Origin: Candidatus Binatia bacterium | GTDB taxonomy: Bacteria; Desulfobacterota; Binatia; HRBIN30 | Direction: 5' to 3' | Assembly (NCBI GenBank): GCA_026415395.1 | Contig: JAOAHD010000007.1 | Coordinates: forward strand, 919,972 to 983,971 | Length of the DNA stretch: 64,000 nucleotides | Part shown: positions 16,139-28,865 of the stretch, one piece after another | How the letters are laid out: every line of letters begins with the position of its first letter | Position numbering within the stretch: the stretch's first letter is position 1 | The notes under the pieces: model-generated | The model's database searches: none | What the model saw: only the letters and a program-made list of their open reading frames with translations | Told to the model about the DNA's origin: nothing | Made by a program: the position numbers and the translations under genes

Positions 16139-17053
16139 ATGCGCATCATTCTCGTCGGGCAGGCGGCGTTTGCCGCCGAGGTGTTAGATCGACTTGTGAA
16201 AGGTGGTCACGAAGTTCTGGCCGTATACTGCCCTCCGGACGCTGCGCCAGACAAGCCAGACCCGGTGAAGGTGCGCGCGCTTGGGCTCGGGATACCGGTT
16301 CGCCAGTACCCCTCGCTCAAGAATCCAGCCGTGCGCGAGGAATGGAAGCAGCTTAATGCGGATCTCGCCGTGCTTGCGTACGTGACGCAAATTGTACCGC
16401 CCGAAGTCTTTTCCGTTCCCAAACAGGGCAGCATTTGTTTTCACCCATCGTTGCTGCCGAAGTATCGCGGCGGCAGCGCAATCCCGTGGCAAATCATCAA
16501 AGGCGAGACAAAAACTGGTGTCACTGTGTTTTGGGTCGATCCAGGAATCGACACTGGCCCGATCCTGTTGCAGAAAGAGGCAACCATTGACCCGGACGAC
16601 ACTGCGGCGTCCCTGTACTTCAACAAGTTGTTCCCCTTGGGGGTGGACGCCGTCGTTGAGGCGGTGCGTTTGATTGATCGCGGCGTAGCTCCGCGCGTGC
16701 CGCAGGATGAGTCGCAGGCCACCTACGATCCGCTTTGTCGCGACGAGCATGCCGCTGTCGATTGGTCGAAGCCCGTCGGCGAGGTCTATAACTTAATTCG
16801 TGGCTGCGATCCCCAGCCCGGGGCCTACAGCTTGCTGAACGGCGAAAAGTTGCGCTTTTTCGATGCTCGGAAAGTTGAAGGTAGTTCCGGGGACCCGCCT
16901 GGGACCGTGATCGAGGTAGGGCCGGACGGTCTCAAGGTTGCGGCGAACGGTGGCTCCATCATCGTGAGGAAACTGCGATTCGGAAGCGGGCAGAAACGGC
17001 CGGCACAGGAAGTCGCGCGCGAGCTGGGTCTCGTTGCGGGTCACAAATTTTAG
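16139..17053 (+). CDS. Formyltransferase family protein (10-formyl-THF hydrolase/transferase-like)
   Basis: 304 residues. The N-terminal formyltransferase domain has FHPSLLPKYRGGSAIPW (catalytic His with SLLP loop) and VFWVDPGIDTGPILL, with a smaller C-terminal domain. These variants resemble the hydrolase domain of 10-formyltetrahydrofolate dehydrogenase more than Fmt. A true fmt exists at 59.8-60.8 kb in its normal context, so this copy is not the housekeeping enzyme. Likely roles are removal of formyl groups from folate or formylation of a sugar or small molecule. The gene follows the hydrolase by 75 bp on the same strand. Confidence 0.85.
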   Translation: MRIILVGQAAFAAEVLDRLVKGGHEVLAVYCPPDAAPDKPDPVKVRALGLGIPVRQYPSLKNPAVREEWKQLNADLAVLAYVTQIVPPEVFSVPKQGSICFHPSLLPKYRGGSAIPWQIIKGETKTGVTVFWVDPGIDTGPILLQKEATIDPDDTAASLYFNKLFPLGVDAVVEAVRLIDRGVAPRVPQDESQATYDPLCRDEHAAVDWSKPVGEVYNLIRGCDPQPGAYSLLNGEKLRFFDARKVEGSSGDPPGTVIEVGPDGLKVAANGGSIIVRKLRFGSGQKRPAQEVARELGLVAGHKF

Positions 17054-17067
17054 CCAAGCCAAAAATA

Positions 17068-17100
17068 AAGCCACGCCGAGCATGATGCTCGACGTGGCTT
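17068..17100. terminator. Bidirectional terminator hairpin
   Basis: 16-nt arms at 17068-17083 and 17085-17100 pair at 15 positions; the inner pairs must open to form a real loop. On the minus strand the stem is followed by TATTTTTGG, so it can end the twin-Cx3C gene. It serves the convergent formyltransferase too. Confidence 0.75.
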
Positions 17101-17133
17101 GAGTTGCAGTGGTGCTTTGCGCGGCGCGAGGGG

Positions 17134-17640
17134 TTAGTTGATGCTTGGCATTAGTCCGGAGTGGCGGCTGCAGACCGGTTGCGCCAGAACACGCGCCTTC
17201 GCGCGGTCAAACTGGCTCTCGCACCGGTCGTTGCAGCGCGAGCTGTCAAAGGTGTCTGAGTTTTGCGCCAAGCGGTTGCAGCGCAAGTAGCATTTCACCT
17301 GCTTCCAAGCCGCTTTCAGAAGTTGCAAATCGCAAATGCCGTTGTTGGCAGCCGAGCCGCTCGTTTGCCCCGTACAGATAGGCGATGCGGACAAGACCGA
17401 GATTTTGCGGGTGAACCGCTCGTCACAGCGGGTTTGACACGCTTGCACCCGCTCCGGCGGGCGTTGCCCGCAGCGTACGCTACAACGGGCGTGGTTGACC
17501 TGCGCGCTGAGCTTGGCGGCCTGGCAGCCCAGTGGTTCGGCTGCGCTGGCCGCGGTGGCAACCGCAACCAGTGCGGCGGCAACGAGCGCTCCGGTCGACA
17601 GGGTTCTGATGCGGTGAACTGGGGTCGTGGCTGGTTTCAT
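17134..17640 (-). CDS. Secreted protein with two twin-Cx3C cysteine modules
   Basis: 168 residues. An N-terminal signal peptide (TGALVAAALVAVATAASA, then AEPLG) sends it out of the cytoplasm. The mature part holds two copies of one cysteine pattern: C-x13-C-x3-C-x10-C-x3-C-x16-C, then the same with x14 in the middle. Both copies have an RC(D/N)xRC(D/E)-type second Cx3C. Paired Cx3C motifs usually make disulfide-linked helical hairpins, as in the small Tim chaperones and CHCH-type folds; that is only a structural analogy. The start at 17640 follows AGGAGAAGGAGAGAGCCA. Not a family I recognise. Confidence 0.8.
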   Translation of the reverse strand: MKPATTPVHRIRTLSTGALVAAALVAVATAASAAEPLGCQAAKLSAQVNHARCSVRCGQRPPERVQACQTRCDERFTRKISVLSASPICTGQTSGSAANNGICDLQLLKAAWKQVKCYLRCNRLAQNSDTFDSSRCNDRCESQFDRAKARVLAQPVCSRHSGLMPSIN

Positions 17641-18034
17641 TGGCTCTCTCCTTCTCCTCGATTGTTCTGGGTCGTTGGGCTCGCCTTGCATCTCGTCTGG
17701 CCAGTGAGTGTTTGCTCGGTGGGAGCCGGTTGCGATGCTCGAACATGAATCAACTATCGTGCCAACGAAACTTGGGAGTGCTGCCTCGCTGGCGACTGAT
17801 CACCTGGTGCACGGAGGAGATGATTCAATGAATCTCGCCAGCGGTTGTCTCTATTTTGCTCCGCCTTCGGTTCGCTTGTGGCCGAATTGGAGGAGTATTG
17901 CTTCCGGGTGAATTACTGCGGGAGCCGCGGCCGGCCTGCAATTTTAGGCTTGTGGCAACGACTTTCGAGTTTCCGTGGGGTTTTCCTGTTCGCAGTCCGT
18001 GCGCGGCCTTGAGGTTGGTGTTGGCCCTACAGAT
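17641..18034. other. Divergent intergenic region, no gene seen
   Basis: About 450 bp separate the twin-Cx3C gene and the activator gene. Short frames here lack motifs and ribosome binding sites. The sequence should hold promoters for both divergent genes; only the operator-like repeat listed next stands out. Confidence 0.5.
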
Positions 18035-18068
18035 ATTGTTCGCGTTTCTCTTGTGGCCGCGGAACAAT
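18035..18068. promoter_or_regulatory. Operator-like inverted repeat upstream of the activator gene
   Basis: ATTGTTC (18035-18041) is mirrored by GAACAAT (18062-18068). The dyad extends inward as GCG/CGC with one unpaired base, and its centre lies about 37 nt before the start codon. The position suits autoregulation by the activator, but this is inference. Confidence 0.35.
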
Positions 18069-18088
18069 CGGCGTAGGATGCACGACGT

Positions 18089-19660
18089 ATGAATCTGACG
18101 GGCAGCGAGGAGCTGGCCCATGTCCGACGCGAACGCGACCTTTATCTACGGTTGCTCGAACTTGGGCGCGAGACGGCCATAGAACCCTTTTTGCAAGAGG
18201 CATTGCTGTTGCTCGTCGGAATGACCGGCGCGCGGCAAGGTTACTTGGAACTCGTGGACCGCACGGATGCCAGCGCGCAAGCCGAGTGTGTGTGGTTCCG
18301 TGCCCATGGCTTCTCCACCGTCGAGATCGAGCAGGTGCGTGTGTTGGTATCCCGCGGGATCATTGCCGAAGTGCTGGCCTCGGGTAAAGCGGTGTTAACT
18401 CCGGCGGCGGTTTTCGATCCACGGTTCAACCAAAGGGCCAGCGTGTCCTCGGCACAAATTGGCGCAGTGTGTTGCGCTCCGATTGGCACCGATCCCACTG
18501 TTGGGGTGGTGTACCTCCAGGGTGGGGATTATTTGCCGATGTTGTCTGACGACTGCTGCCATGCGGTGGAGACTGTGGCCCGCTTGCTTGCCCCTTTGGC
18601 GCAGCGCATTCTTCAAGGCTACCGGGACGCCAAAATTGGTGATCCGACTGCCGCTAGTCGTACCAAGCTGACTCTTCCGGGAGTCATCGGCCGCTCGCAA
18701 GCCCTCGCGCGGGTTTTGCAACAGGCACAAATGGTGGCACCATTAGATGTGACCGTGCTGCTCACTGGTGAGTCGGGAACAGGCAAAAGCCAATTGGCAC
18801 ACATCATTCATGCGAACGGTCCGCGTGCTGACGCCCCGTTTGTGGAGCTGAATTGTGCCGCGTTGCCGGAAACCTTGGTCGAAAGCGAACTCTTTGGGGC
18901 CGTACCTGGTGCCCATTCGACCGCAAATCGCGCCATCCAAGGCAAAGTGGCAGCGGCCGAGGGAGGAACGCTGTTGCTGGACGAAGTTGGCGATCTGCCG
19001 TTCAGCGCGCAAGGGAAACTTCTCCACCTGCTACAAACCCGCGAGTACTATCCGCTGGGCAGTGCCCGTCCGGCTCGGGCGAATGTGCGTATCATTGCAG
19101 CAACCAACATGGATTTGCGGCAAGCAGTTGCTGATCGCCGGTTTCGCGAGGATTTGTTTTACCGCCTGGAGGTCATGCCGATTGGGCTTCCAAGCTTGGC
19201 CGAGCGCCGCGAGGATATTGCGGAACTGGCCGCGTATTTTTGCACCGAGGCTTGTCAGCGACATCAGCTCGGGGACTTGTGCTTGTCAGCGACGGCAGTG
19301 CGGAGGCTCGAGCTAGCCGAGTGGCCCGGCAATATTCGCCAGCTCGCTAACGTAGTAGAAGCCGCGGTTATTCGCGCGGTGAGCGAGGGCAGTTCCGCGG
19401 TGGAGGTGCTCCATTTGTTCCCCGATGCTTCCGCCTGCGCGGAAATCGAAACGCCGGGAAGCGACACCGAAGCGGCTTCTCTCTGGCAGGGCTCGTTTCA
19501 TCAGGCCACGCGCGAATTTCAAACGGAATTGTTGCGCCGTACCTTGAAGGCCACCGGATGGAACGTGACCGAGGCAGCTCGCCGTCTGGATCTGGCGCGC
19601 TCACATGTCCATCGACTGATCCGCCATTTCGGTCTCACCGAAGAAGCGCAGGGCTCTTGA
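18089..19660 (+). CDS. GAF-AAA+-Fis transcriptional activator with an altered GAFTGA loop
   Basis: 523 residues. A GAF sensor domain occupies about residues 25-175. The AAA+ core follows: Walker A GESGTGKS (227-234), ELNCAALPETLVESELFG, Walker B LLLDEVGD (295-302) and the arginine-rich RRFREDLFYRLEV. The C-terminal Fis-type helix-turn-helix reads TEAARRLDLARSHVHRLI. The loop that normally reads GAFTGA, which contacts sigma-54, is GAHSTA (274-279). The essential F and T are gone, so action through sigma-54 is doubtful or altered. Its TGA overlaps the ATG of the kinase gene, implying coupled synthesis. Confidence 0.88.
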   Translation: MNLTGSEELAHVRRERDLYLRLLELGRETAIEPFLQEALLLLVGMTGARQGYLELVDRTDASAQAECVWFRAHGFSTVEIEQVRVLVSRGIIAEVLASGKAVLTPAAVFDPRFNQRASVSSAQIGAVCCAPIGTDPTVGVVYLQGGDYLPMLSDDCCHAVETVARLLAPLAQRILQGYRDAKIGDPTAASRTKLTLPGVIGRSQALARVLQQAQMVAPLDVTVLLTGESGTGKSQLAHIIHANGPRADAPFVELNCAALPETLVESELFGAVPGAHSTANRAIQGKVAAAEGGTLLLDEVGDLPFSAQGKLLHLLQTREYYPLGSARPARANVRIIAATNMDLRQAVADRRFREDLFYRLEVMPIGLPSLAERREDIAELAAYFCTEACQRHQLGDLCLSATAVRRLELAEWPGNIRQLANVVEAAVIRAVSEGSSAVEVLHLFPDASACAEIETPGSDTEAASLWQGSFHQATREFQTELLRRTLKATGWNVTEAARRLDLARSHVHRLIRHFGLTEEAQGS

Positions 19661-22600
19661 TGAGCCCGCATAGAGTAGCCTGGTTTGAGTCGGAGGAAGG
19701 CCGATTCCAAATTCGTGGCGTTGTCGGGCGCGGCGCGTACAGTGTGGTATACCGGGCTTACGACCGCGAAACACGCACAGAGGTTGCACTCAAGGTTTTG
19801 GAAGGATGGAACCCCCAGGAGCTCTATCGCCTCAAACGTGAGTTCCGCCTGCTGCGCTCATTGCGTCACCCGTCTTTAGTAGAGTTTTACGAATTATTTT
19901 CGAGCCCGAGCCGGGGAACGTTCTTCTCGATGGAATTCGTCGATGGGGCTCCGCTTTTGGGCGAGAGTACGGCAGCGTCAGCTCCGGGTCCATCGCCGAC
20001 CAGCCGGCCTCTGGATCCTAGCGCTTGTGCAGAGCTGCTGGCGGCTGCCCGCGAGCTCGTTGATGCTTTAAACCTAGTGCACGCCGCGGGCATCGTGCAT
20101 CGCGATGTCAAACCGAGCAATATTCTTAAGCGGCTCGCCGGCGGTGTTGTGCTCCTCGACTTTGGCCTAGCCGCCCACCGTGATCCTGACGGCATCGACA
20201 CCTTGGTCGAGCGTGGCTTGGCAGGAACATGGGTGTACATGGCTCCCGAAGCGATCTTGGGGCGAGCTGCCACTCCAGCATGCGATTGGTACAGCCTGGC
20301 GGTTTTGTTGTTCGAGGCAATTACTGGACAGCCCGCGTTTGCCGGAACGGCTGCGGAAGTTTGGCAAGCAAAGCAGCGGGGCCTGATCCCCTCCTGTCTG
20401 CGTTTGGCGGGACGCGTACCGGAAGGCATTGCTGAAGTCATTGTGGCCTCACTCGATCCAGATCCAAACTCTCGGCCAGACGGGGCAAGCTGGAGCCGTG
20501 CGTTGGCGGAGGCTGATCGTAGCCCGACTGCCGGTTTAACGCCCTTTACTGGCGCAGCGGCCACCGCAACTTCGAATCGGCTGTTTGTTGGCCGCGCGGC
20601 TGAGCTCGACGAGCTTGCTGATGCCTACCGGCAAGCGGTTCGAGGGCATACCGTAATCGCGCGCATTAGCGGTCCCGGCGGGATCGGCAAAACCGAACTC
20701 GTGCGGCAGTTCCTGGGCGAGATTCCGCTCGCTGAATCACCCCTGATCCTTCGAGCCCGTTGCCATTGGCAGGAGTCCGTGCCGTTCAACGCCGTAGACG
20801 GAATTGTGGACGAGCTGGCACTTTGGCTTCGGGCGCACGATCCGGGCCTGCTCGGAGAACTGACAGAATTCCAGCAGGATTGCCTCGCGCGGATGTTTCC
20901 GGTGCTTGGTCCCGATGCACCACAGTTGTCGGAAAAGCCGCAGGTGCAGCTTCACCCCGCCGAGGTGCGGCGCGTTGCCTTCGAAGCAATGCGGCTCCTC
21001 TTCGCGCACCTTGCGACCGTGCGACCGCTCGTGCTGTGGATTGACGACGGGCAATGGGCCGACGCGGACAGCGCGGCGCTACTGAGCGCGGTGTTTCGGT
21101 CGCCGGATGCACCGCGTGCCTTGATCCTCGTTTGCCAGCGCTCGGAACAAGCCGATGAGGTGCTTCCCCTGCTCGACGACGCCTCCGCACGCGCCTGGGC
21201 GGAGCTCGTGCGGCAAGTGCCTGTGGGTCCATTGTCGGCGGATGCCGCAAGGGAGCTTGCGCTGGGCTGCTCTCCGAAACTTGCGGAGAATTCCTTCGAA
21301 GCTGATCAGATCCTGAGAGAAGCGGAAGGGTCGCCGTTGCTGATTGCGCAACTCGCGCAGCACGTGGGAAGGTCTGCGATGAGCTCACCATCGCCCTCAT
21401 TGGCGCTACCGCAGGTGGTGGGTGTGCGTGTCGATAGCTTACCAGCGGCCGCGCGGCGAATTCTGGACCTGGCGGCCGTGGCTGTGCGTCCGATCAATTC
21501 GAGCTTGCTGTTGCGCGTGGCCGGGCTTGGCGAAGGCGGGCGGCGGTTCGTGTCGTTGCTGGACGCAGTCCGCTTACTTCAGAGTACCCGCGTAGGTGGC
21601 GAGGTGTGTGTAGAGCCGTACCACCAGCGCATTGGCGATGCGGTTCGCTCGCGTTTGTCCAGAGCAGAATTGGAGAGATGCCACGCGCTGTTGGCTGAAC
21701 ATTTGGCTACCGAGTCTGTGGTCGAAGAGGAGCGTGTGTTCTACCACTGGCGCGCGGGTGGCCGTCTGACCGAAGCGACAGAGTGGGCCCTGTTGGCTGC
21801 GGAGCGAGCTGGCCGGCAACTCGCTTTCGAAAAAGCGGTGGAGCTTTACACAGAAGCCCTGGCATTGGGTTGTGTCAGAGGCGCAGAACAGCGTGCCAAC
21901 GTGGAACGCAAGCGTGCGGAGATGCTTGCGAACGCTGGTCGCGGAGCCGCCGCCGCGCCGATCTTTTTGGCGTTGGCAGAGCAGGCGAGCGACGCCGCGT
22001 TTGCGCACGACCTGCGCCGCCGCGCAGCGGAAGAATACTTGATGAGCGGCCACCTGCGGGAGGGCACAGCGGCATTGCGCGCTGTGCTGCAGCGCGTGGG
22101 TGTGAACATGCCTGCGTCCCCCGCCGGCGCGTTGGTGCGCTCCCTGTTGTGGCTCTTGCCGCTCTGGCTCGCAGAGAGGCGGGCGCGGCGGGGAGGGCAC
22201 AAAGCCGTGCTTCCGGAAGCGGATGCGCGATGTGACGCGTGCCACTCTGCCGCCAAGGGTTTGTCGTTTGTGGACCCACCGCGAGGGCTCTACTTTTCTA
22301 TGCACGCGCTGCGCTGGGCGTTGGCTGCTGGAGGGCCCCGGCGCATGGCGCGTGGACTGTCGTTCGTCGGCAGCAATCTCTTGCCCATGGGAGGATTCTT
22401 TGCGCGTTGGTCAAGCCACATGATCGAGCGGGCGGGAGCCCTGGCTCGGATGAGCGACGAGCCTTACCTCGAAGCTACGACCGCATTAGCGATTGCCCAA
22501 ATGCGCATGATGGAGTGCCGCTGGGCAGAGATGTTGACCCTCTGTGAGCGCGCGCGTGCAATATTCCGGGAGCAGTGTCCGGGCTCAGCCTGGGAAGTCA

Positions 22601-23385
22601 GTGTGGCAACGATGGCCGCGCTGCGTGCCTTGGAAGAGTTGGGCCATTTGCCCGAACTCCACCGGCAGGCGGTCGCCATGATTCAAGAGGCCGAGCGCAC
22701 CGGCAACCTTTATGCTGAGGTTACGGGTCTTTTAAACGAGGGCTTTTGCCTATTGGCTCAGGGCGACCCGGTGGAAGCGTGGCGCCTCGCTGACGAGAGC
22801 AGCCGGCGGTGGAAAACAGAGGGGTTTCACGTCCAGCACTTTTACGCTGCCCGGCTGAAAAGCCTCTGTGCCCTCTACGAAGGGCACACAGATGAAGCTG
22901 TGCGCAGCTTCGCCGCGCCTTGGCGAGCGATGCAACAGAGCGGCCTCTTGCGGCACACGATCTACCGAATCGATGCGTTAACCTTGCGCGCCCGCCTCTT
23001 GTTGGCAGAGTTGGCGCACGAGCAGAAACGCAGCGCGCGTGCTCGCCATCGGGTGGAGCGCGTGGTCAACAAGCTCGCCCAGGAGGGCCGCGTGGATAGC
23101 AGCGCTTGGTCGCTCGTGTTGCGCGCTACCTTGGCGAACTGGACCGACGAGGGGGAGCGGGCTCTGGAATGGCTCACGGCAGCCCAACAAAAGTTCGAGT
23201 CGGCCAGTATGAGCGTGGGAGCAGCCATTGGTGGCTACGGCGCTGCCCAGAAGTGCGCGGCTCCGGTGGCAGAAAAACTCAGGCAGCAGTCTTCAGCGTT
23301 GTTTTCCACAGCCAACATCGCTTCTCCTCGCCGCTTCGTGCATATGCTCGCTCCTGGCCTTTGCGGAGATGGGCTCGACGGTTGA
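19660..23385 (+). CDS. Serine/threonine kinase fused to a STAND ATPase and TPR-like region
   Basis: 1241 residues. Kinase domain at about residues 15-285: glycine loop GRGAYSVVYRAYD, ATP lysine K45 in VALKVL, catalytic loop HRDVKPSN (147-154), DFG at 167-169 and APE at 195-197, all intact. Then a STAND-type NTPase: FVGRAAELDELADAYR, P-loop GPGGIGKT (338-345), and Walker B VLWIDDGQWADADS. The C-terminal half is helical and TPR-like (EKAVELYTEALALG). No transmembrane segment stands out, so it is probably cytosolic. The start is the ATG of a TGATG overlap with the activator gene. A phosphorelay onto that activator is a reasonable guess. Confidence 0.9.
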   Translation: MSPHRVAWFESEEGRFQIRGVVGRGAYSVVYRAYDRETRTEVALKVLEGWNPQELYRLKREFRLLRSLRHPSLVEFYELFSSPSRGTFFSMEFVDGAPLLGESTAASAPGPSPTSRPLDPSACAELLAAARELVDALNLVHAAGIVHRDVKPSNILKRLAGGVVLLDFGLAAHRDPDGIDTLVERGLAGTWVYMAPEAILGRAATPACDWYSLAVLLFEAITGQPAFAGTAAEVWQAKQRGLIPSCLRLAGRVPEGIAEVIVASLDPDPNSRPDGASWSRALAEADRSPTAGLTPFTGAAATATSNRLFVGRAAELDELADAYRQAVRGHTVIARISGPGGIGKTELVRQFLGEIPLAESPLILRARCHWQESVPFNAVDGIVDELALWLRAHDPGLLGELTEFQQDCLARMFPVLGPDAPQLSEKPQVQLHPAEVRRVAFEAMRLLFAHLATVRPLVLWIDDGQWADADSAALLSAVFRSPDAPRALILVCQRSEQADEVLPLLDDASARAWAELVRQVPVGPLSADAARELALGCSPKLAENSFEADQILREAEGSPLLIAQLAQHVGRSAMSSPSPSLALPQVVGVRVDSLPAAARRILDLAAVAVRPINSSLLLRVAGLGEGGRRFVSLLDAVRLLQSTRVGGEVCVEPYHQRIGDAVRSRLSRAELERCHALLAEHLATESVVEEERVFYHWRAGGRLTEATEWALLAAERAGRQLAFEKAVELYTEALALGCVRGAEQRANVERKRAEMLANAGRGAAAAPIFLALAEQASDAAFAHDLRRRAAEEYLMSGHLREGTAALRAVLQRVGVNMPASPAGALVRSLLWLLPLWLAERRARRGGHKAVLPEADARCDACHSAAKGLSFVDPPRGLYFSMHALRWALAAGGPRRMARGLSFVGSNLLPMGGFFARWSSHMIERAGALARMSDEPYLEATTALAIAQMRMMECRWAEMLTLCERARAIFREQCPGSAWEVSVATMAALRALEELGHLPELHRQAVAMIQEAERTGNLYAEVTGLLNEGFCLLAQGDPVEAWRLADESSRRWKTEGFHVQHFYAARLKSLCALYEGHTDEAVRSFAAPWRAMQQSGLLRHTIYRIDALTLRARLLLAELAHEQKRSARARHRVERVVNKLAQEGRVDSSAWSLVLRATLANWTDEGERALEWLTAAQQKFESASMSVGAAIGGYGAAQKCAAPVAEKLRQQSSALFSTANIASPRRFVHMLAPGLCGDGLDG

Positions 23386-23542
23386 TTCAGCGATGACGCA
23401 CCGGGGTGCAGGGACGGACGGAAATCGGCAGTACCCATTCGTAGGAGCGGAAAACTGGATGCTTGCCGGCACCTGAGCGGCTGTACTCCGTTAACCGTGT
23501 TCGGCTCGTTGCCCCTGCACACCGAGCTGCAGCTCAACCCAC

Positions 23543-24604
23543 TCACGCCGGACTCGTGTCGGGGCTGTTTTGCCCAGAGCGTGGGCTGCGCGCGCCGAGG
23601 TAGAGTTTTGCGGTCAGCGGGTGGTTGCCGTGCACGACAACCTTGAGGTGACTCAAGTAGGGCCTACCGACGTGCACATCGTCAGGATCGTCCCCGAGTG
23701 GTTGGTGAACCCAGTGCTGAGCAGCCTCAGCACAGCGCTGGTGGCATAGCCCATCGCGGACCAAAGCAGCCAGCAAGTCCAGCCAATCTCCCGCTGCAGG
23801 CGGCAGCAGTGTGAGGCCGATGCGTGGGGAAACGGTGTGCGCAACATCCATGTCGAGTTGCGCTCGCTGGGCTCCCGAGCCGAAGCAGGTCACGCGCGCG
23901 TAACGCTCGATCAGCGCGGCAATCGCGGCCGTGTTTGCCCCCGGTGCAACGCGCTGCAGATAGCCGGGTGCTGCTGAAGCCGGGAGGAGAAGCGACACGC
24001 GATGGCCGGCCGCAGGCCGGCTTGTTAGAACACCCGCGTGTGCCCACACGCCGCCCTCAGGCAATTCCTGCCACACGCGGGCGAGCTGCGATGCCTCCTC
24101 AGCGGTTGCCCGGCGGCCGAGCAGACTCAAAAGCCGTAAGATGAACTGGAACCCCGGAACCGCGAAGGCGTTCTGCCGGAGTGCAGGCTCAAGTTCGGCA
24201 AGGGGCCAGTCGAGGGCAAGGAACACGCCGGGCTGTGCCTCCCAGTTCCGGCCCCGATCGAATTCGAGAAACAAGAACGGCACTCGTGCACGGAGCGCGG
24301 TCTGGTCGCGTTGCAACCACAGTAGGATAAAGGCGCTCAGACGCCGCCAGCACGCAAATCGGAGAGCGAGTCGATGCAGTTGCAGGTTCGCCCCCGTTGG
24401 GAGAAGTGTGCGCGTAGCCGGCGCCTGGGGTGTAACTGCCATGCCGACCGCGTAAAGCGTCCCTGGTCTCTCCAAGCCGCATTCAAGTCCGACGTCCTCA
24501 CTGCACGCCGGCAATCGCTGCAGGAAACGCCGGATCTCCGGTTTGCGCCGCGAGCTGCAGAGTGCGCTTGGGACTTTGGCGACCCAAGCCAGCGGGTCGG
24601 CCAT
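23543..24604 (-). CDS. Hypothetical protein, 353 residues
   Basis: I do not recognise this protein. It has no signal peptide or membrane segment. Composition is Leu/Ala/Arg-rich with mixed helices and strands: FLFLEFDRGRNWEAQPG in the middle and SHLKVVVHGNHPLTAKLYLG near the end, both strand-like. The last segment vaguely recalls the KxY strands of ABBA-fold prenyltransferases, but this is too weak to name it. The start has no clear ribosome binding site; ATG at 24604 is the longest choice, and a downstream ATG near residue 53 is possible. It follows the next gene by about 48 bp on the same strand, so the pair probably forms an operon. Confidence 0.65.
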   Translation of the reverse strand: MADPLAWVAKVPSALCSSRRKPEIRRFLQRLPACSEDVGLECGLERPGTLYAVGMAVTPQAPATRTLLPTGANLQLHRLALRFACWRRLSAFILLWLQRDQTALRARVPFLFLEFDRGRNWEAQPGVFLALDWPLAELEPALRQNAFAVPGFQFILRLLSLLGRRATAEEASQLARVWQELPEGGVWAHAGVLTSRPAAGHRVSLLLPASAAPGYLQRVAPGANTAAIAALIERYARVTCFGSGAQRAQLDMDVAHTVSPRIGLTLLPPAAGDWLDLLAALVRDGLCHQRCAEAAQHWVHQPLGDDPDDVHVGRPYLSHLKVVVHGNHPLTAKLYLGARSPRSGQNSPDTSPA

Positions 24605-24651
24605 CGTTGTGCTTTACGCCTGCGTGAGAAGGCGGAAGGGCTTCGAGCGCA

Positions 24652-25311
24652 TCAGAGCGAAAACTGGGTTTGCGCCACGGGCGAGTCGATCGTAAAGTCC
24701 CAGCCGTTGCCTAGTGCAATCTTGACCACTGCGTGGTACGACCCAGGAGGAAGGGACAAAGGACTCACCACAATCTTCCCGCCGCGGAATGTGGAGCCGG
24801 GCTCGGGGTCGCGTCGGACTTGATACACAGGACTCCCAGAAGCGGCGGCGCGCACTTCTACCGTCGTGCGTCCTGGGAGGAATCCCTCGCCATAGATTTC
24901 AAGGCTTGTGGGTCCGGCAGCACTGGGTTTGCGCACCACCACGGCTTCGATCTGACACACGGGGTCGGGGTAGCTGGCGACGATCGCTTGAGGAGCAGAA
25001 AAACCCTTTTCGTATTCTGTATCCTCGTTCGGATCCCAGTCCCAGCGCGAGTACTCGTAGAGCCAAAGTACGTAGTCGCGAATGTCTTCTGCATTGCCGC
25101 GCAACGTGGGATCTGTGCCAATAAGATCGTTGAGGACTTGGAGGCTGATCGGGCCTTTCCGCAGTTGTAAGAAGGCATCGAGCTCCGCTGGCGACAACTT
25201 GGAGAGATCCGCTCCAGGGTCGAGGTTGAACTGCTTGCGGTTGGTCAGCCCGCTGGCATGCGGGTTCGCGGTAAGCTTGGTGACGAGCAGTGCGAGTGGG
25301 GTGAGGGGCAT
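24652..25311 (-). CDS. Hypothetical protein with a helical N-terminal region and an IPT/TIG-like C-terminal domain
   Basis: 219 residues. The N-terminal 60 residues (LTPLALLVTKLTANPHASG, then LSPAELDAFLQLRKGP) form a small helical domain. This resembles nif11/LigA-like helical segments, which is only a hint. The C-terminal half has an Ig-like TIG pattern, SLEIYGEGFLPGRTTVEVR and PPGSYHAVVKIALGNGW. There is no signal peptide. Of two in-frame ATGs, I take the second (25311), because AAAGG lies nine bases before it; at the first (25320) the site directly abuts the codon. It precedes the 353-residue gene in a likely two-gene operon. Confidence 0.7.
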   Translation of the reverse strand: MPLTPLALLVTKLTANPHASGLTNRKQFNLDPGADLSKLSPAELDAFLQLRKGPISLQVLNDLIGTDPTLRGNAEDIRDYVLWLYEYSRWDWDPNEDTEYEKGFSAPQAIVASYPDPVCQIEAVVVRKPSAAGPTSLEIYGEGFLPGRTTVEVRAAASGSPVYQVRRDPEPGSTFRGGKIVVSPLSLPPGSYHAVVKIALGNGWDFTIDSPVAQTQFSL

Positions 25312-25598
25312 CGGGTCCATCCTTTCCGGGGAATTTGCTTCTGCGTTGCAGCTATCACGCCGAGCTTGTGGCCTACAACAGAACGCCTGTGTTTTTTCCC
25401 CGCGTTGCCACTCTTGCTCCGCCTAGAAGGCACGCCAATGGGAGAGGGCAAAAAACCCGCTCGGTCCTTGCCGCCGGGCTGCCATCCGTCCTACAAGAAC
25501 ATTCGAGTGGACGATCTTGCGCTCTTTCCTCGCGATTTCGAATAGCACCACCGAGTAGGGACGGTATGAGCGGGTCGCGCCACCGGAAAGGAGCGCAC

Positions 25599-27230
25599 AT
25601 GAGCCACCCTTTATGCGGCGTGGCTGCGGCCACCCTCGTTGTTGTGAGGGTTGCGGCCTGCGTCCTAAGTGCCGGGGGTGCGATAGCGGTGGCTACGGTG
25701 ACGCCCACGCCGCAGCTTGGGAGCGGTGGCGCGAGCTTTAGTCAGGCGGAAACGACCTCGCCAACCGCCACACCAACTTGCAGTTGTCCGGTTCGCTGCC
25801 GCTGCGCCGAGGATCAGCCCTACGGTGTAGGTTTGCGTCAAATCTTGCCGCCGCTCGACGCCGCCACACTGATTGGCCAAGGCAGCAGAAACTCCCCCGC
25901 GCGCTTCGGGGACCCGGGCCGAGTGGCGACGGACCAGGCGCCGGCCGTAGCCGAAGGAGAATGCCCGCAGAACCTGCCATCTACTCCCACACCCCTACCG
26001 GGCGCGGCATGGAACCTCATACAGATCGGGGCCGAGCCAGCGTGGAGGGCACTGGGCTGGCCACAGACAGCGATGGCGCAGCACAAGGTGTACGTCGCTG
26101 TGGTGGATACCGGAGTCGACACATCGCACCCCGATTTGTCGGGCCGCATCGCACCTTGGCAGATAAGCTTTGCCGAATTGCAGCCGAGCGATGATGTTAG
26201 CTCCGATTCCGCGCACGGCACTGCGATGAGCAGCATCATTGCTGCACGCGGAGACAACGGCGAGGTGGGGATCCACGGGATCATGTGGGGTACACAGGTG
26301 ATCCCTTGCAAGGTTGGCGGCGGAAACAATGGCACCCTGCCCAAGGCCCTCGCGTGTCTCGCGTGGTTGGAAAAGCTAATGGACGAGCAGCGCGTGCCCA
26401 TTGTCGCAGTGAATTTTTCGTTTGGTTCCGACTGCTGCGATTGCGAGATGGAGCGCGCCGTGGCACGACTGCGCGACCGCGGTGTGTTGTTCGTTGCCTC
26501 GGCCGGCAACGGGAGGAAAAACGCCGATGCTGCGGAGAGCTGCCCCTTCTACCCCGCAAGCTACCCGCTGTCGAATGTCGTGGCGGTAACCGGTTCCGAC
26601 AGTTACGGAAACGTGTTGTACCGCTACGGTAAGCGGCGCGTGCACGTGGCGGCTCCCGGGATAGCCATTCCCGTTCTCACTCCCGGGGGCGGGCGGAGCG
26701 TCATACCTGGCGGGAGTTCTCCGGCGGCAGCACATGCGACGGGTCTGGTCGCGTTGCTCTATGCGCAGAACCCAAGTCGCACTTGGATGCAGGTGCGCAA
26801 TTTATTATTGAGCAGTGGTCCGCTCGTAACGTGTGCGAATCAGCCGATTTGTGCGTTAGTTACGGGCCGCCGTGTACAAGCATGGGGTGCAGATGGCCAC
26901 GGTGCGCTGAGTTGTAGGCAGCAAATTGTGGTCCGCCGCCTGCTCCCCGTCGATGACAATATCGTTGCGCGGCCTGGCGACACGTTGGATTTGCGCGTAC
27001 TCAGCATCAACTGCGCAGAGCCGCTTGCTCTCAGCGACATTGAGGTACAAAGAGCCAGCGGCTTCATTGGATCTGTTGCCCGGCTCAACTTTCGTGACGA
27101 TGGGTTGCCGCCGGACGAGGTCGCTGGGGATGGCGAGTTCCATGCGAGGTGGGCGATAGCGGGTCCGCCGAACCGAGATTACGTCGTAACGATTGGTGGC
27201 GAGAGCTTGCGAATTCACGTGGTCCCCTAA
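25599..27230 (+). CDS. Secreted S8 family (subtilisin-like) serine protease
   Basis: 543 residues. A signal segment of about 35 residues leads into a Thr/Pro-rich, Cys-containing pro-region. The catalytic triad is visible: Asp in AVVDTGVDTSHPDLSG (near 168), His in DSAHGTAMSSIIAA (near 206) and Ser in GGSSPAAAHATGLVALL (near 373). The last replaces the usual GTSMAAPHVAG. The oxyanion Asn is probably in LFVASAGNGRKN. A C-terminal beta domain of about 100 residues follows. The ATG at 25599 has AAAGGAG six bases before it; an in-frame frame extends further upstream but is poor. Extracellular or periplasmic. Confidence 0.88.
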   Translation: MSHPLCGVAAATLVVVRVAACVLSAGGAIAVATVTPTPQLGSGGASFSQAETTSPTATPTCSCPVRCRCAEDQPYGVGLRQILPPLDAATLIGQGSRNSPARFGDPGRVATDQAPAVAEGECPQNLPSTPTPLPGAAWNLIQIGAEPAWRALGWPQTAMAQHKVYVAVVDTGVDTSHPDLSGRIAPWQISFAELQPSDDVSSDSAHGTAMSSIIAARGDNGEVGIHGIMWGTQVIPCKVGGGNNGTLPKALACLAWLEKLMDEQRVPIVAVNFSFGSDCCDCEMERAVARLRDRGVLFVASAGNGRKNADAAESCPFYPASYPLSNVVAVTGSDSYGNVLYRYGKRRVHVAAPGIAIPVLTPGGGRSVIPGGSSPAAAHATGLVALLYAQNPSRTWMQVRNLLLSSGPLVTCANQPICALVTGRRVQAWGADGHGALSCRQQIVVRRLLPVDDNIVARPGDTLDLRVLSINCAEPLALSDIEVQRASGFIGSVARLNFRDDGLPPDEVAGDGEFHARWAIAGPPNRDYVVTIGGESLRIHVVP

Positions 27231-27338
27231 TGGAACGTTGGAGCCGTGCGTGGGGCCAGGTTAGGTTGAGTTCGTCGAACGCCTTCCGAGCGCACTGTGG
27301 AAGCTGTCGGCAACTCAGCGGGCGGGTGGTGCTCGGAA

Positions 27339-28865
27339 TCAGTTGGCTTCCTTCTGTTCAGAAGAAGCGGGCGGGTTGCCGATTGCGGCAGGTGCGTTGC
27401 GTGGCCACCAGCGTAGCACCGGGCGCCGCGCGGCGCGTGCTTCGTCAATGCGCCCGACTGGCGTGTGCACAGGAGCTGCCTTGAGCGTCTCGGGTGTCTC
27501 GCGCGCCTCGCGTGCGATTTGCAGCATCGCTTCGATGAAAGCGTCGAGGGTTTCCTTGCTCTCGGTTTCCGTTGGTTCAATCATCAAAGCCCCCGGCACA
27601 ACGAGCGGAAAGTAAATGGTGGGTGCATAAAAGCCGAGATCGAGCAAGCGCTTGGCGACATCGAGGGTTTTGACCCCCGTGCCCTCAAAGCCTTTGTCGC
27701 TGAACACGCACTCGTGCATGCACACCCCGGGGAAGGCCAAGTGATAAGCCTCGGACAATCGCACCCGCAGGTAGTTGGCGGCCAGCACGGCCAGGCGGCT
27801 GACCTGTGCGAGCCCGTCTCCGCCGAGTGCCAGCATATAGGCCAGGGCGCGCACGTGCATGCCGAAATTGCCGTGAAACGTACGCACCCGGCCAATCGAC
27901 TTAGGGAAGTCCTCGCTCCACCGCCATCCATCCGCCGCGCGGACCACGCGAGGGATCGGGAGATAGGGTTCGAGCGCTGCGGCGACGGCCACGGGGCCCG
28001 CACCTGGGCCGCCTCCTCCGTGGGGAGTGGAAAATGTCTTGTGCAAATTGATTTGCATGACATCCGCGCCCATGTGCGCCGGCTTCGCCACTCCGAGGAG
28101 TGCATTCAGATTGGCCCCGTCAAGATAAACGAGCCCGCCCTGTTCATGCACGATTTGGGCAATTTGGACGATCTCCCGTTCAAATAGCCCTAGGGTGTTC
28201 GGATTCGTGATCATCAGGGCGGCCACCTCGCGATCCATCGCTTTACGCACCGCAGTTGGCTCGATGAGGCCAATTTGGTTCCCCTCGAGAGTTACGGTCG
28301 TGTAGCCGCAGAGAGCAGCACTGGCGGGGTTCGTGCCGTGCGCGCTGGCAGGAATGAGCACCTTTTGCCGGGGATTCCCGCGATCGCGGTGAAACGCCCG
28401 GATCATTTTCATCCCGGTGAGCTCGCCCTGGGCGCCCGCGGCAGGTTGAAGCGTGACCGCCGCCATACCGGTAACCTCAGCAAGCCACTGCTCGAGCTCG
28501 TACAGAAGCTCCAGGGCGCCTTGTGCAAGTTCATCGGGCGTGAGCGGATGCAGGTGCGCAAACCCTGGGAGGCGGGCAAAGCCCTCATTCGCCACCGGAT
28601 TGTACTTCATCGTACACGAGCCCAACGGATAAAAGGTGGTCGCCGCCCCGTAGTTCCATTGCGAAAGCCGCAAGAAATGCCGCAGAACCTCGGGCTCCGA
28701 TACCTCCGGAAATCCTTTGATTGGACCCCGAATCAATTGGCGTGGAAGGAATCGCTCTGCTTCTGGGGTCGAGGCCGGTAGATCGATGCCGCACTGCCCG
28801 GCACGGCTGCGTTCGAAAATGAGGGGTTCGTCGAGAAGCAAGCCTTCTTGCTTATGTCCGCGCAT
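27339..28865 (-). CDS. gcvPB: Glycine dehydrogenase (decarboxylating) subunit 2, P protein beta
   Basis: 508 residues. It is the PLP-binding half of a split glycine decarboxylase, releasing CO2 from glycine and passing the aminomethyl group to lipoyl-GcvH. The PLP lysine is in VMQINLHKTFSTPHGGGGPG. Other signatures are STMKYNP (in YPLGSCTMKYNP), HGTNPASAALCGY and GVAKPAHMGADV. The last gene of folD-gcvT-gcvH-gcvPA-gcvPB, 18 bp after gcvPA. The tail past about residue 480 (rich in Arg, Ala, Pro) looks non-conserved. Confidence 0.97.
   Translation of the reverse strand: MRGHKQEGLLLDEPLIFERSRAGQCGIDLPASTPEAERFLPRQLIRGPIKGFPEVSEPEVLRHFLRLSQWNYGAATTFYPLGSCTMKYNPVANEGFARLPGFAHLHPLTPDELAQGALELLYELEQWLAEVTGMAAVTLQPAAGAQGELTGMKMIRAFHRDRGNPRQKVLIPASAHGTNPASAALCGYTTVTLEGNQIGLIEPTAVRKAMDREVAALMITNPNTLGLFEREIVQIAQIVHEQGGLVYLDGANLNALLGVAKPAHMGADVMQINLHKTFSTPHGGGGPGAGPVAVAAALEPYLPIPRVVRAADGWRWSEDFPKSIGRVRTFHGNFGMHVRALAYMLALGGDGLAQVSRLAVLAANYLRVRLSEAYHLAFPGVCMHECVFSDKGFEGTGVKTLDVAKRLLDLGFYAPTIYFPLVVPGALMIEPTETESKETLDAFIEAMLQIAREARETPETLKAAPVHTPVGRIDEARAARRPVLRWWPRNAPAAIGNPPASSEQKEAN

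Follow-up and report, generated by a model that had tools for sequence, protein, structure and literature searches.

Introduction

Ser/Thr kinases of the STAND (signal transduction ATPases with numerous domains) class that are encoded beside a transcription factor have a described representative in PknK of Mycobacterium tuberculosis, whose gene we take to be a neighbour of virS. PknK is described as a soluble, STAND-classified Ser/Thr kinase that phosphorylates VirS, and the affinity of VirS for its promoter increases 2.5-fold on this phosphorylation (PMC9045387, PMC4601284). Here we describe a comparable arrangement in a 64,000-nucleotide stretch of DNA, hereafter the window, from Candidatus Binatia bacterium (GTDB lineage Bacteria; Desulfobacterota; Binatia; HRBIN30; GenBank assembly GCA_026415395.1, contig JAOAHD010000007.1, forward-strand positions 919,972 to 983,971). 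In the window, the gene of a GAF-AAA+-Fis regulator of the enhancer-binding protein (EBP) type overlaps the gene of a large protein made of a Ser/Thr kinase, a STAND ATPase and a TPR-like tail. The pair is real and conserved, yet its linked partners are separable, and together with its neighbours it suggests a dedicated signalling circuit that serves a small-molecule or peptide pathway. As judged from the published descriptions, the PknK sequence aside, the two systems share a STAND kinase encoded beside a transcription factor. They differ in that the partner of PknK is of AraC type, whereas here it is a GAF-AAA+-Fis protein with an ATPase ring of its own and the two genes overlap; phosphorylation has been demonstrated there and is proposed here. 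A preliminary description of the locus had considered such a circuit unusual, but the phosphorylation of VirS by PknK is a precedent that makes it less so (PMC9045387, PMC4601284). The altered GAFTGA loop of the EBP and a linked gene for a predicted prenyltransferase are more surprising than the pair itself.

Several other well-known systems resemble one of the two partners. The GAF-domain EBPs of the NifA/NorR type have the same GAF-AAA+-Fis order and have nitric oxide, NifL or a histidine kinase as partners. NorR (319 bits, cut-off 476) and NifA (305 bits, cut-off 529) are the best NCBIfam matches of the window EBP, which differs from this type in having GAHSTA instead of GAFTGA and a Ser/Thr kinase as its putative partner. 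The FHA-domain EBPs of Myxococcus xanthus are thought to be wired to Ser/Thr kinases; they carry an FHA domain, whereas the window EBP has a GAF domain and no FHA match in Pfam. The kinase protein shares an NTPase core and a helical-repeat sensor with STAND ATPases such as 6mfv (presumably PH0952), MalT and Apaf-1, and differs from them in its output domain, which is a protein kinase at the N-terminus instead of a DNA-binding or CARD domain. A literature search combining the topics STAND kinase, EBP, operon and sigma54, which covered few subscription papers, gave no match. If the kinase acts on the EBP, the pair would place Ser/Thr phosphorylation in one step onto an AAA+ EBP, with a NOD-like switch as the sensor, while phosphorylation of such proteins usually goes through histidine kinases.

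Domain organization of the EBP and the kinase-STAND-TPR protein

The features of the pair, with window coordinates, are the following.

18089-19660, + strand: EBP, a GAF-AAA+-Fis transcriptional regulator of 523 aa (open reading frame and Pfam)
18182-18592, + strand: GAF domain of the EBP, residues 32-168 (Pfam PF01590, E 2e-7)
18683-19183, + strand: AAA+ sigma54-interaction domain of the EBP, residues 199-365 (Pfam PF00158, Sigma54_activat, E 2.7e-61)
18908-18925, + strand: GAHSTA in place of GAFTGA (sigma54-contact loop L1), EBP residues 274-279 (sequence)
19511-19609, + strand: Fis-type helix-turn-helix of the EBP, residues 475-507 (Pfam PF02954, HTH_8, E 6.9e-7)
19658-19662, + strand: TGATG stop/start overlap of EBP and kinase genes (sequence)
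19660-23385, + strand: kinase-STAND-TPR protein of 1241 aa, ATG at 19660 (open reading frame and Pfam)
19711-20478, + strand: Hanks-type Ser/Thr kinase domain, residues 18-273 (Pfam PF00069, E 6.3e-37)
20584-21129, + strand: STAND/AAA_16 NTPase core, residues 309-490 (Pfam PF13191, E 7.3e-21; AlphaFold2 model and Foldseek)
21727-23352, + strand: predicted TPR-like alpha-helical superhelix, residues about 690-1230 (AlphaFold2 model)

The make-up that the preliminary description had assigned to both genes is borne out by Pfam, which matched GAF, Sigma54_activat and HTH_8 in the first and Pkinase and AAA_16 in the second, and the 1241-residue frame does begin within the TGATG at 19658-19662. This overlap suggests that translation of the EBP and the kinase is coupled. 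The EBP keeps both Walker motifs (GESGTGKS and LLLDE). Between the congeners G000 and G002 (genomes and loci are numbered G and L by us), the rates of nonsynonymous and synonymous differences (pN/pS) are 0.15/0.69 in the EBP gene and 0.24/0.75 in that of the kinase, with synonymous sites near saturation. Because pN lies far below pS, both reading frames are under purifying selection.

The residues required for activity, which had been reported as retained, are all found in the window protein. Its kinase domain has K45, HRDVKPSN with D149, DFG at residues 167-169 and APE, and its STAND ATPase has the P-loop GPGGIGKT and the double acidic Walker B LVLWIDD. When 11 kinases are aligned, no variation is seen at the catalytic Lys, the alpha-C Glu, HRD, the Asp and Phe of DFG or the Lys of the P-loop; DFD replaces DFG in one sequence and SPE replaces APE in two. 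Pfam reported no TPR in the tail. The TPR-like character described earlier is nevertheless predicted by an AlphaFold2 model of residues 290-1241 (14-row alignment, mean predicted local distance difference test (pLDDT) 84.9), in which the ATPase is followed by a long helical superhelix. By Foldseek, the best match of this model in the PDB is the STAND-TPR protein 6mfv (E 9.3e-12, TM-score 0.30/0.39), and the rest of the top eight includes Avs3 and SAMD9 chains, both within the top six, MalT (8bob, E 1.0e-6) and Apaf-1 (1z6t, E 2.6e-6). No curated STAND subfamily could be assigned beyond AAA_16, and the helical-repeat sensor is predicted from the model.

Conservation of the gene pair

We surveyed 58 genomes, the window genome and 57 relatives, calling a kinase at E<=1e-60 with a tail that was also related and taking up to about 20 kb around each one. 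The kinase was present in 12 of the 58 genomes, and in 11 of these 12 (G000, G001, G002, G005, G008, G010, G011, G012, G013, G020 and G021), or eight of nine genera, the adjacent gene encodes a member of the same EBP family, with 49-76% identity to the EBP of the window. By chance, an EBP would be placed within 3 kb of the kinase in about 0.2-0.4% of cases per genome. The stop and start codons overlap in four of the 11 adjacent pairs, as TGATG in G000, G001 and G002 and as ATGA in G005 (L170). The G005 pair is split across two contig ends, with the N-terminus of the kinase following the EBP on one contig and the remainder opening another. The other pairs differ in gene order. G008 and G010 have the two genes in tandem, in G012 they diverge, and in G011, G013 and G020 they converge, while in G021 a subtilase gene lies between the EBP and the kinase. 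It is hard to explain by descent alone that adjacency survives such rearrangements.

A survey of other genomes for the same gene pair had been set beforehand as a check, and the pair proved not to be confined to this genome, since it occurs in 11 of 12 kinase-bearing relatives, in several gene orders. A class-wide search of 148 genomes (at most four candidates scored per genome, kinase at E<=1e-60) found 15 kinase loci in 14 genomes, with a family EBP adjacent at 11 of the 15. The earlier proposal of a two-gene module is upheld by adjacency among the relatives, but the association is not universal and the partners can be found apart; the module reading is plausible and partly supported. A phylum-wide search of 395 genomes scored two candidates per genome, so that its few matches are not evidence of absence.

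The GAHSTA loop and sigma54 contact

The EBP had been called an activator. It does have an AAA+ sigma54-interaction domain with its Walker motifs, and RpoN is encoded in the genome, but the preliminary description did not mention that GAFTGA is replaced by GAHSTA. In a tree of 39 rows (36 family members and three other EBPs; long branches were flagged for one outgroup and for G441_C271), the 36 family EBPs split from the other three at 100/100 support. The loop is GAHSTA in 27 of the 36, and GAHSSA, GAHSGA and GAHSAA occur once each. The remaining six loops, GAFTDA in two members and GAFTGA, GAYTGA, GSFTGA and GIHNDA in one each, form a single, weakly supported subclade nested among the GAHSTA members. 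Two EBPs with GAHSTA, a partial one from G017 and that of G439 contig C772, were left out of this count, which would be 29 of 38 with both. Besides five weak matches, 12 strong EBP domains are encoded in the window genome. Of the 11 strong ones other than the window EBP, eight carry GAFTGA and the rest GSFTGA, GAYTGA or GAFTDA, so that GAHSTA belongs to the subfamily and not to the genome. A full-text search for the term "GAHSTA" in a limited body of literature gave no match.

We consider it possible, though only tentatively, that the EBP has lost contact with sigma54 through GAHSTA and works as a sigma70-type activator or repressor, of which TyrR is an example; this would be compatible with any other reading of the pair. 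The GAFTGA-like loops in the other 11 strong EBPs of the genome are consistent with such a loss, and no sigma54 promoter is prominent near the pair. According to Francke et al., in the legend of their Figure 3, the F position takes only Y and T is not listed for the second G, and by these rules GAHSTA would be classed as sigma54-inactive (PMC3162934). Caulobacter NtrC offers a precedent, as it has no GAFTGA and is reported to act at sigma70 promoters, but the same work also states that NtrC mutants can drive sigma54-dependent expression without the motif (PMC12421884). The length of the loop in the alignment is unchanged and Walker A and B are kept, which argues against such a loss, and RpoN is present in all 58 genomes (the window genome has one, E 6e-64). 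Moreover, five of the 36 members have GAFTGA, GAYTGA, GSFTGA or GAFTDA and, with the GIHNDA row, sit in the weak subclade within the GAHSTA members. This nesting, if real, would amount to a reversion to the canonical motif and would suggest that contact with sigma54 has been retained throughout. Canonical and variant loops coexist with a single RpoN in the window genome, and even within one protein family. The GAHSTA subfamily thus offers a natural experiment that could show which elements of GAFTGA are truly needed by sigma54.

Neighbouring genes

Three further genes of the window lie downstream of the pair.

23546-24604, - strand: X, a 353-aa predicted ABBA-type aromatic prenyltransferase (AlphaFold2 model, Foldseek, VIA-align)
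24655-25320, - strand: Y, a 222-aa protein of unknown family, upstream of X (homologues at L031, L032 and L033)
25566-27230, + strand: S8 subtilase, divergent from Y (Pfam PF00082, E 1e-34; homologues at L031, L032, L033 and L035)

These conserved neighbours had been missed in the preliminary description. A search for co-evolving neighbours, by all-against-all comparison of the pair loci and profile searches, found that X, Y and the subtilase recur beside the pair: X in G000, G001, G002, G008, G012 and G021; Y, 80% identical between congeners, in G000, G001, G002 and G008; and the subtilase in the latter four and in G021, where it is the gene between EBP and kinase (L035), with a weaker match in the Sorangium locus L089. 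The subtilase is probably secreted, as its N-terminus looks like a signal peptide by eye; it has an alternative start at 25599. It cannot be called a cyanobactin-type protease, since its PatA/PatG score of 21.3 bits is too weak against a cut-off of 421. Y has no match in Pfam or NCBIfam. Searching the 58 genomes for X, with at most 35 candidates scored in each, gave six full-length copies, all six beside the kinase, and one partial match in G036.

The predicted identity of X was missed by our sequence searches and came to light only through its modelled fold. It has no Pfam match at E<=1 in the three of six copies scanned and no NCBIfam match at E<=0.1 for the window copy, and its best hit among PDB sequences is an unrelated protein (E 0.34). 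The AlphaFold2 model from a six-row alignment (mean pLDDT 85.9) has ten strands in five pairs with helices between them. Its top Foldseek match is 5-dimethylallyltryptophan synthase 6zs0 (E 5.6e-7), its VIA-align score against MpnD is Z 17.5 over 289 residues, and each of the 50 rows listed by VIA-align (Z 17.5 to 12.6) bears the title of an aromatic or indole-type prenyltransferase. On account of this modelled fold and these structural matches, X is predicted to be an ABBA prenyltransferase. It would thus share its fold with DMATS, MpnD and CymD, and more distantly with the cyanobactin enzyme PagF, without sequence similarity to such enzymes detectable in Pfam or the PDB.

The distant X homologue of G036 stands beside a TOMM-type YcaO (278 bits, cut-off 219), in a locus (L253 2410-12692) that resembles those for ribosomally synthesized and post-translationally modified peptides (RiPPs). 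The same contig has a C39-peptidase ABC exporter about 6 kb away (817 bits, cut-off 853) and a second ABC protein. No RiPP precursor peptide was evident in the window, where no systematic search for one was made.

A different gene accompanies other members of the EBP family. A conserved flavin adenine dinucleotide (FAD) amine oxidase of 700 aa lies within 5 kb of six EBP loci (L046, L169, L171, L176, L177 and L185), none of which has a kinase of the window type, although L046 has a more distant kinase 3.9 kb off. At four of the six loci there is, in addition, a conserved protein of 230-300 aa that belongs to no known family. Other FAD amine oxidases occur beside three kinase loci (L037, L040 and L041). 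These oxidase neighbours point to small-molecule pathways. We also looked at the pair as a conflict system of the ternary STAND/peptidase kind described in PMC7159879 and PMC8195603, and left this reading aside because the neighbours scanned, which fell short of a full search, contained no such partner domain.

Partners of the EBP family in distant genomes

A scan of named genomes by generic patterns gave at least 80 loci, three of which match most of the protein at 46-56% identity and were taken as members of the family. Searching five more distant genomes turned up seven family EBPs in four of them; the fifth, Archangium (G443), gave no family-level EBP match (best E 9.9e-105, loop GAFTGA). 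A large Ser/Thr kinase lies within 2 kb of, or overlaps, four of the seven, and three of these four kinases carry nSTAND1. In Sorangium (L089), a kinase-nSTAND1-FGE protein begins about 40 bp downstream of the EBP if a GTG start is assumed. Proteins of kinase-nSTAND1-FGE (L235) and kinase-nSTAND1 (L237) organization are convergent with their EBPs, and at L236 a possible GTG start of the kinase, whose C-terminal part has no Pfam domain, overlaps the EBP stop as GTGA. As to the other three EBPs, one in G440 has a kinase-AAA_16 protein 6 kb away, one on G439 contig C239 has such a protein about 7 kb away, and on G439 contig C772 the contig ends at the EBP. In each of three of these genomes the kinase protein has well over a hundred matches, so that some kinase neighbours there may be due to chance. 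All the same, these loci suggest that this EBP subfamily may partner STAND kinases of several types. The EBP frame on G439 C772 (L206/L239) still reads GAHSTA and has an in-frame stop at the contig end; it is possibly decaying or affected by a sequencing error.

A proposed circuit and its alternatives

We propose, with a probability of roughly one half, that the EBP and the kinase form a one-kinase, one-regulator signalling unit that serves a nearby natural-product-like locus in the manner of PknK and VirS. The TPR superhelix and the STAND ATPase would bind a cue, which could be a protein, a peptide or a metabolite, exchange nucleotide and oligomerise, and oligomerisation would let the kinase domains at the N-termini meet and autophosphorylate. 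Once active, the kinase would phosphorylate the co-translated EBP and lift a GAF-mediated inhibition, and the freed AAA+ ring may assemble on DNA and alter transcription of the nearby locus. Because its sigma54 loop is GAHSTA, the ring probably uses a modified contact with RNA polymerase. In the genus of the window, and partly elsewhere, the target locus would comprise X, Y and the secreted subtilase, as a natural-product-like or processed-peptide pathway. In favour of this circuit are the domain make-up with its intact active sites, the overlapping codons, the adjacency kept through several arrangements, the large kinases close to four of the seven distant family EBPs, the six full-length copies of X, all beside the kinase, and the precedent of PknK and VirS. 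Whereas the domain make-up, the catalytic residues, the overlap and linkage of the two genes, the GAHSTA loop and the recurring neighbours are observed, and the folds of the kinase tail and of X are predicted by modelling, we infer the cue, the oligomerisation, the phosphorylation of the EBP, the direction of regulation and the targets.

A number of observations weigh against this circuit, most of them because the two partners are also found apart. In G041, the kinase has no neighbouring EBP and two family EBPs lie on other contigs, and three of the 11 adjacent pairs come from one genus and are hence not independent. The three loci added by the class-wide search (G500 C115, G503 C293 and G503 C467) have no family EBP on the contig stretches examined, with flanks of more than 3 kb on both sides only at G500 C115 (about 1.4 and 1.7 kb at G503 C293, none downstream at G503 C467). 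Nine more remote kinase-STAND loci from the relatives (L042-L050) all lack a family EBP within 3 kb, the closest being at 3.9 kb (L046) and 8 kb (L047). In three distant genomes (Sorangium cellulosum So0008-312, the deltaproteobacterial metagenome-assembled genome (MAG) DP_38 and the Polyangiaceae MAG OFTM3), 10 of the 13 kinase matches examined show kinase, ATPase and tail, and none of these ten has a family EBP within 3 kb or up to the contig end; at one of them a family EBP lies about 7 kb off, and at another (L196) the EBP found 1.5 kb upstream belongs to a different family. Conversely, the family EBP (E<=1e-100) is present in 24 of the 58 genomes, twice the kinase-bearing number, and 12 of these 24 have a kinase match at E<=1e-60, so that the EBP often occurs without the kinase; the unpaired EBPs of the class (L171-L177 and L179-L186) have no kinase on the stretches examined. 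Paired and unpaired EBPs are intermixed on the tree, and a single clade of paired EBPs is not supported, as the STAND-kinase label requires nine changes against a shuffled mean of 10.8, with 61 of 500 shuffles as low. Regarding the target, X cannot be the sole one, because it is absent from six of the 12 kinase genomes. A scan of nine loci for TGGCACG-N4-TTGCW, compared with simple base shuffles, found five weak sigma54 sites at window positions 17000-28000 against 5.55 expected, which is no enrichment. The nine loci were mostly near expectation, with the top excesses at L170 (5 against 2.2) and L031 (11 against 6.35), and such sites were rejected as evidence. Finally, the intergenic regions that precede the EBP and that separate Y from the subtilase show no conserved operator when aligned, clear sharing being confined to the start codons and the stretch just before them.

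This separability would also be expected if the two proteins were independent regulators of the same locus, neighbours by virtue of the genes that they both serve, the EBP responding to a small molecule sensed by its GAF domain and the kinase acting on other substrates, such as the subtilase, X, Y or distant proteins. Family EBPs that lack the kinase are common, and six of the family loci have the FAD amine oxidase within 5 kb, so that the EBP can work alone. The kinase, too, is found on its own, as in G041 beside another FAD amine oxidase (L040). We nevertheless consider independent regulation rather unlikely, in view of the overlapping start and stop codons in four pairs and of an adjacency that is kept despite inversions and differing gene orders. 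It is still harder to believe that the TPR/STAND part holds the resting EBP in a fixed ratio and frees it on cue, much as MalT is inhibited by bound proteins, with the kinase activity serving other purposes. Co-translation would fit a fixed stoichiometry and the tail model resembles (Foldseek E 1.0e-6) a chain of 8bob, entitled "Structural basis for negative regulation of the maltose system", but the catalytic residues are kept over 11 sequences (one DFD, two SPE), which indicates that catalysis matters.

The one-kinase, one-regulator circuit could be part of something broader, and we offer this extension as a speculation that we hold to be quite unlikely. In it, a widespread and as yet unnamed module would have a STAND-switch kinase, with AAA_16-TPR, nSTAND1 or nSTAND1-FGE as interchangeable types, drive its own EBP. 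GAHSTA would mark a new EBP subclass with an altered sigma contact, and the module would control natural-product loci with a new ABBA prenyltransferase family, a secreted protease and perhaps peptide modification.

Other genes near the EBP

Some genes were seen near members of the EBP family in individual genomes. Genes of REC-LuxR response regulators flank the EBP in one genus (L038, L039 and L185), a call that is confirmed by Pfam for L039 and judged from the appearance of the N-terminus for L038 and L185. In G008, two copies of the EBP are separated by the gene of a class III nucleotide cyclase (L033:12206-13480; Guanylate_cyc, E 2.5e-7). In the window, the EBP is preceded by a gene on the - strand (17134-17691) for a 185-aa cysteine-rich protein that has no Pfam match and is 59% identical in congeners.

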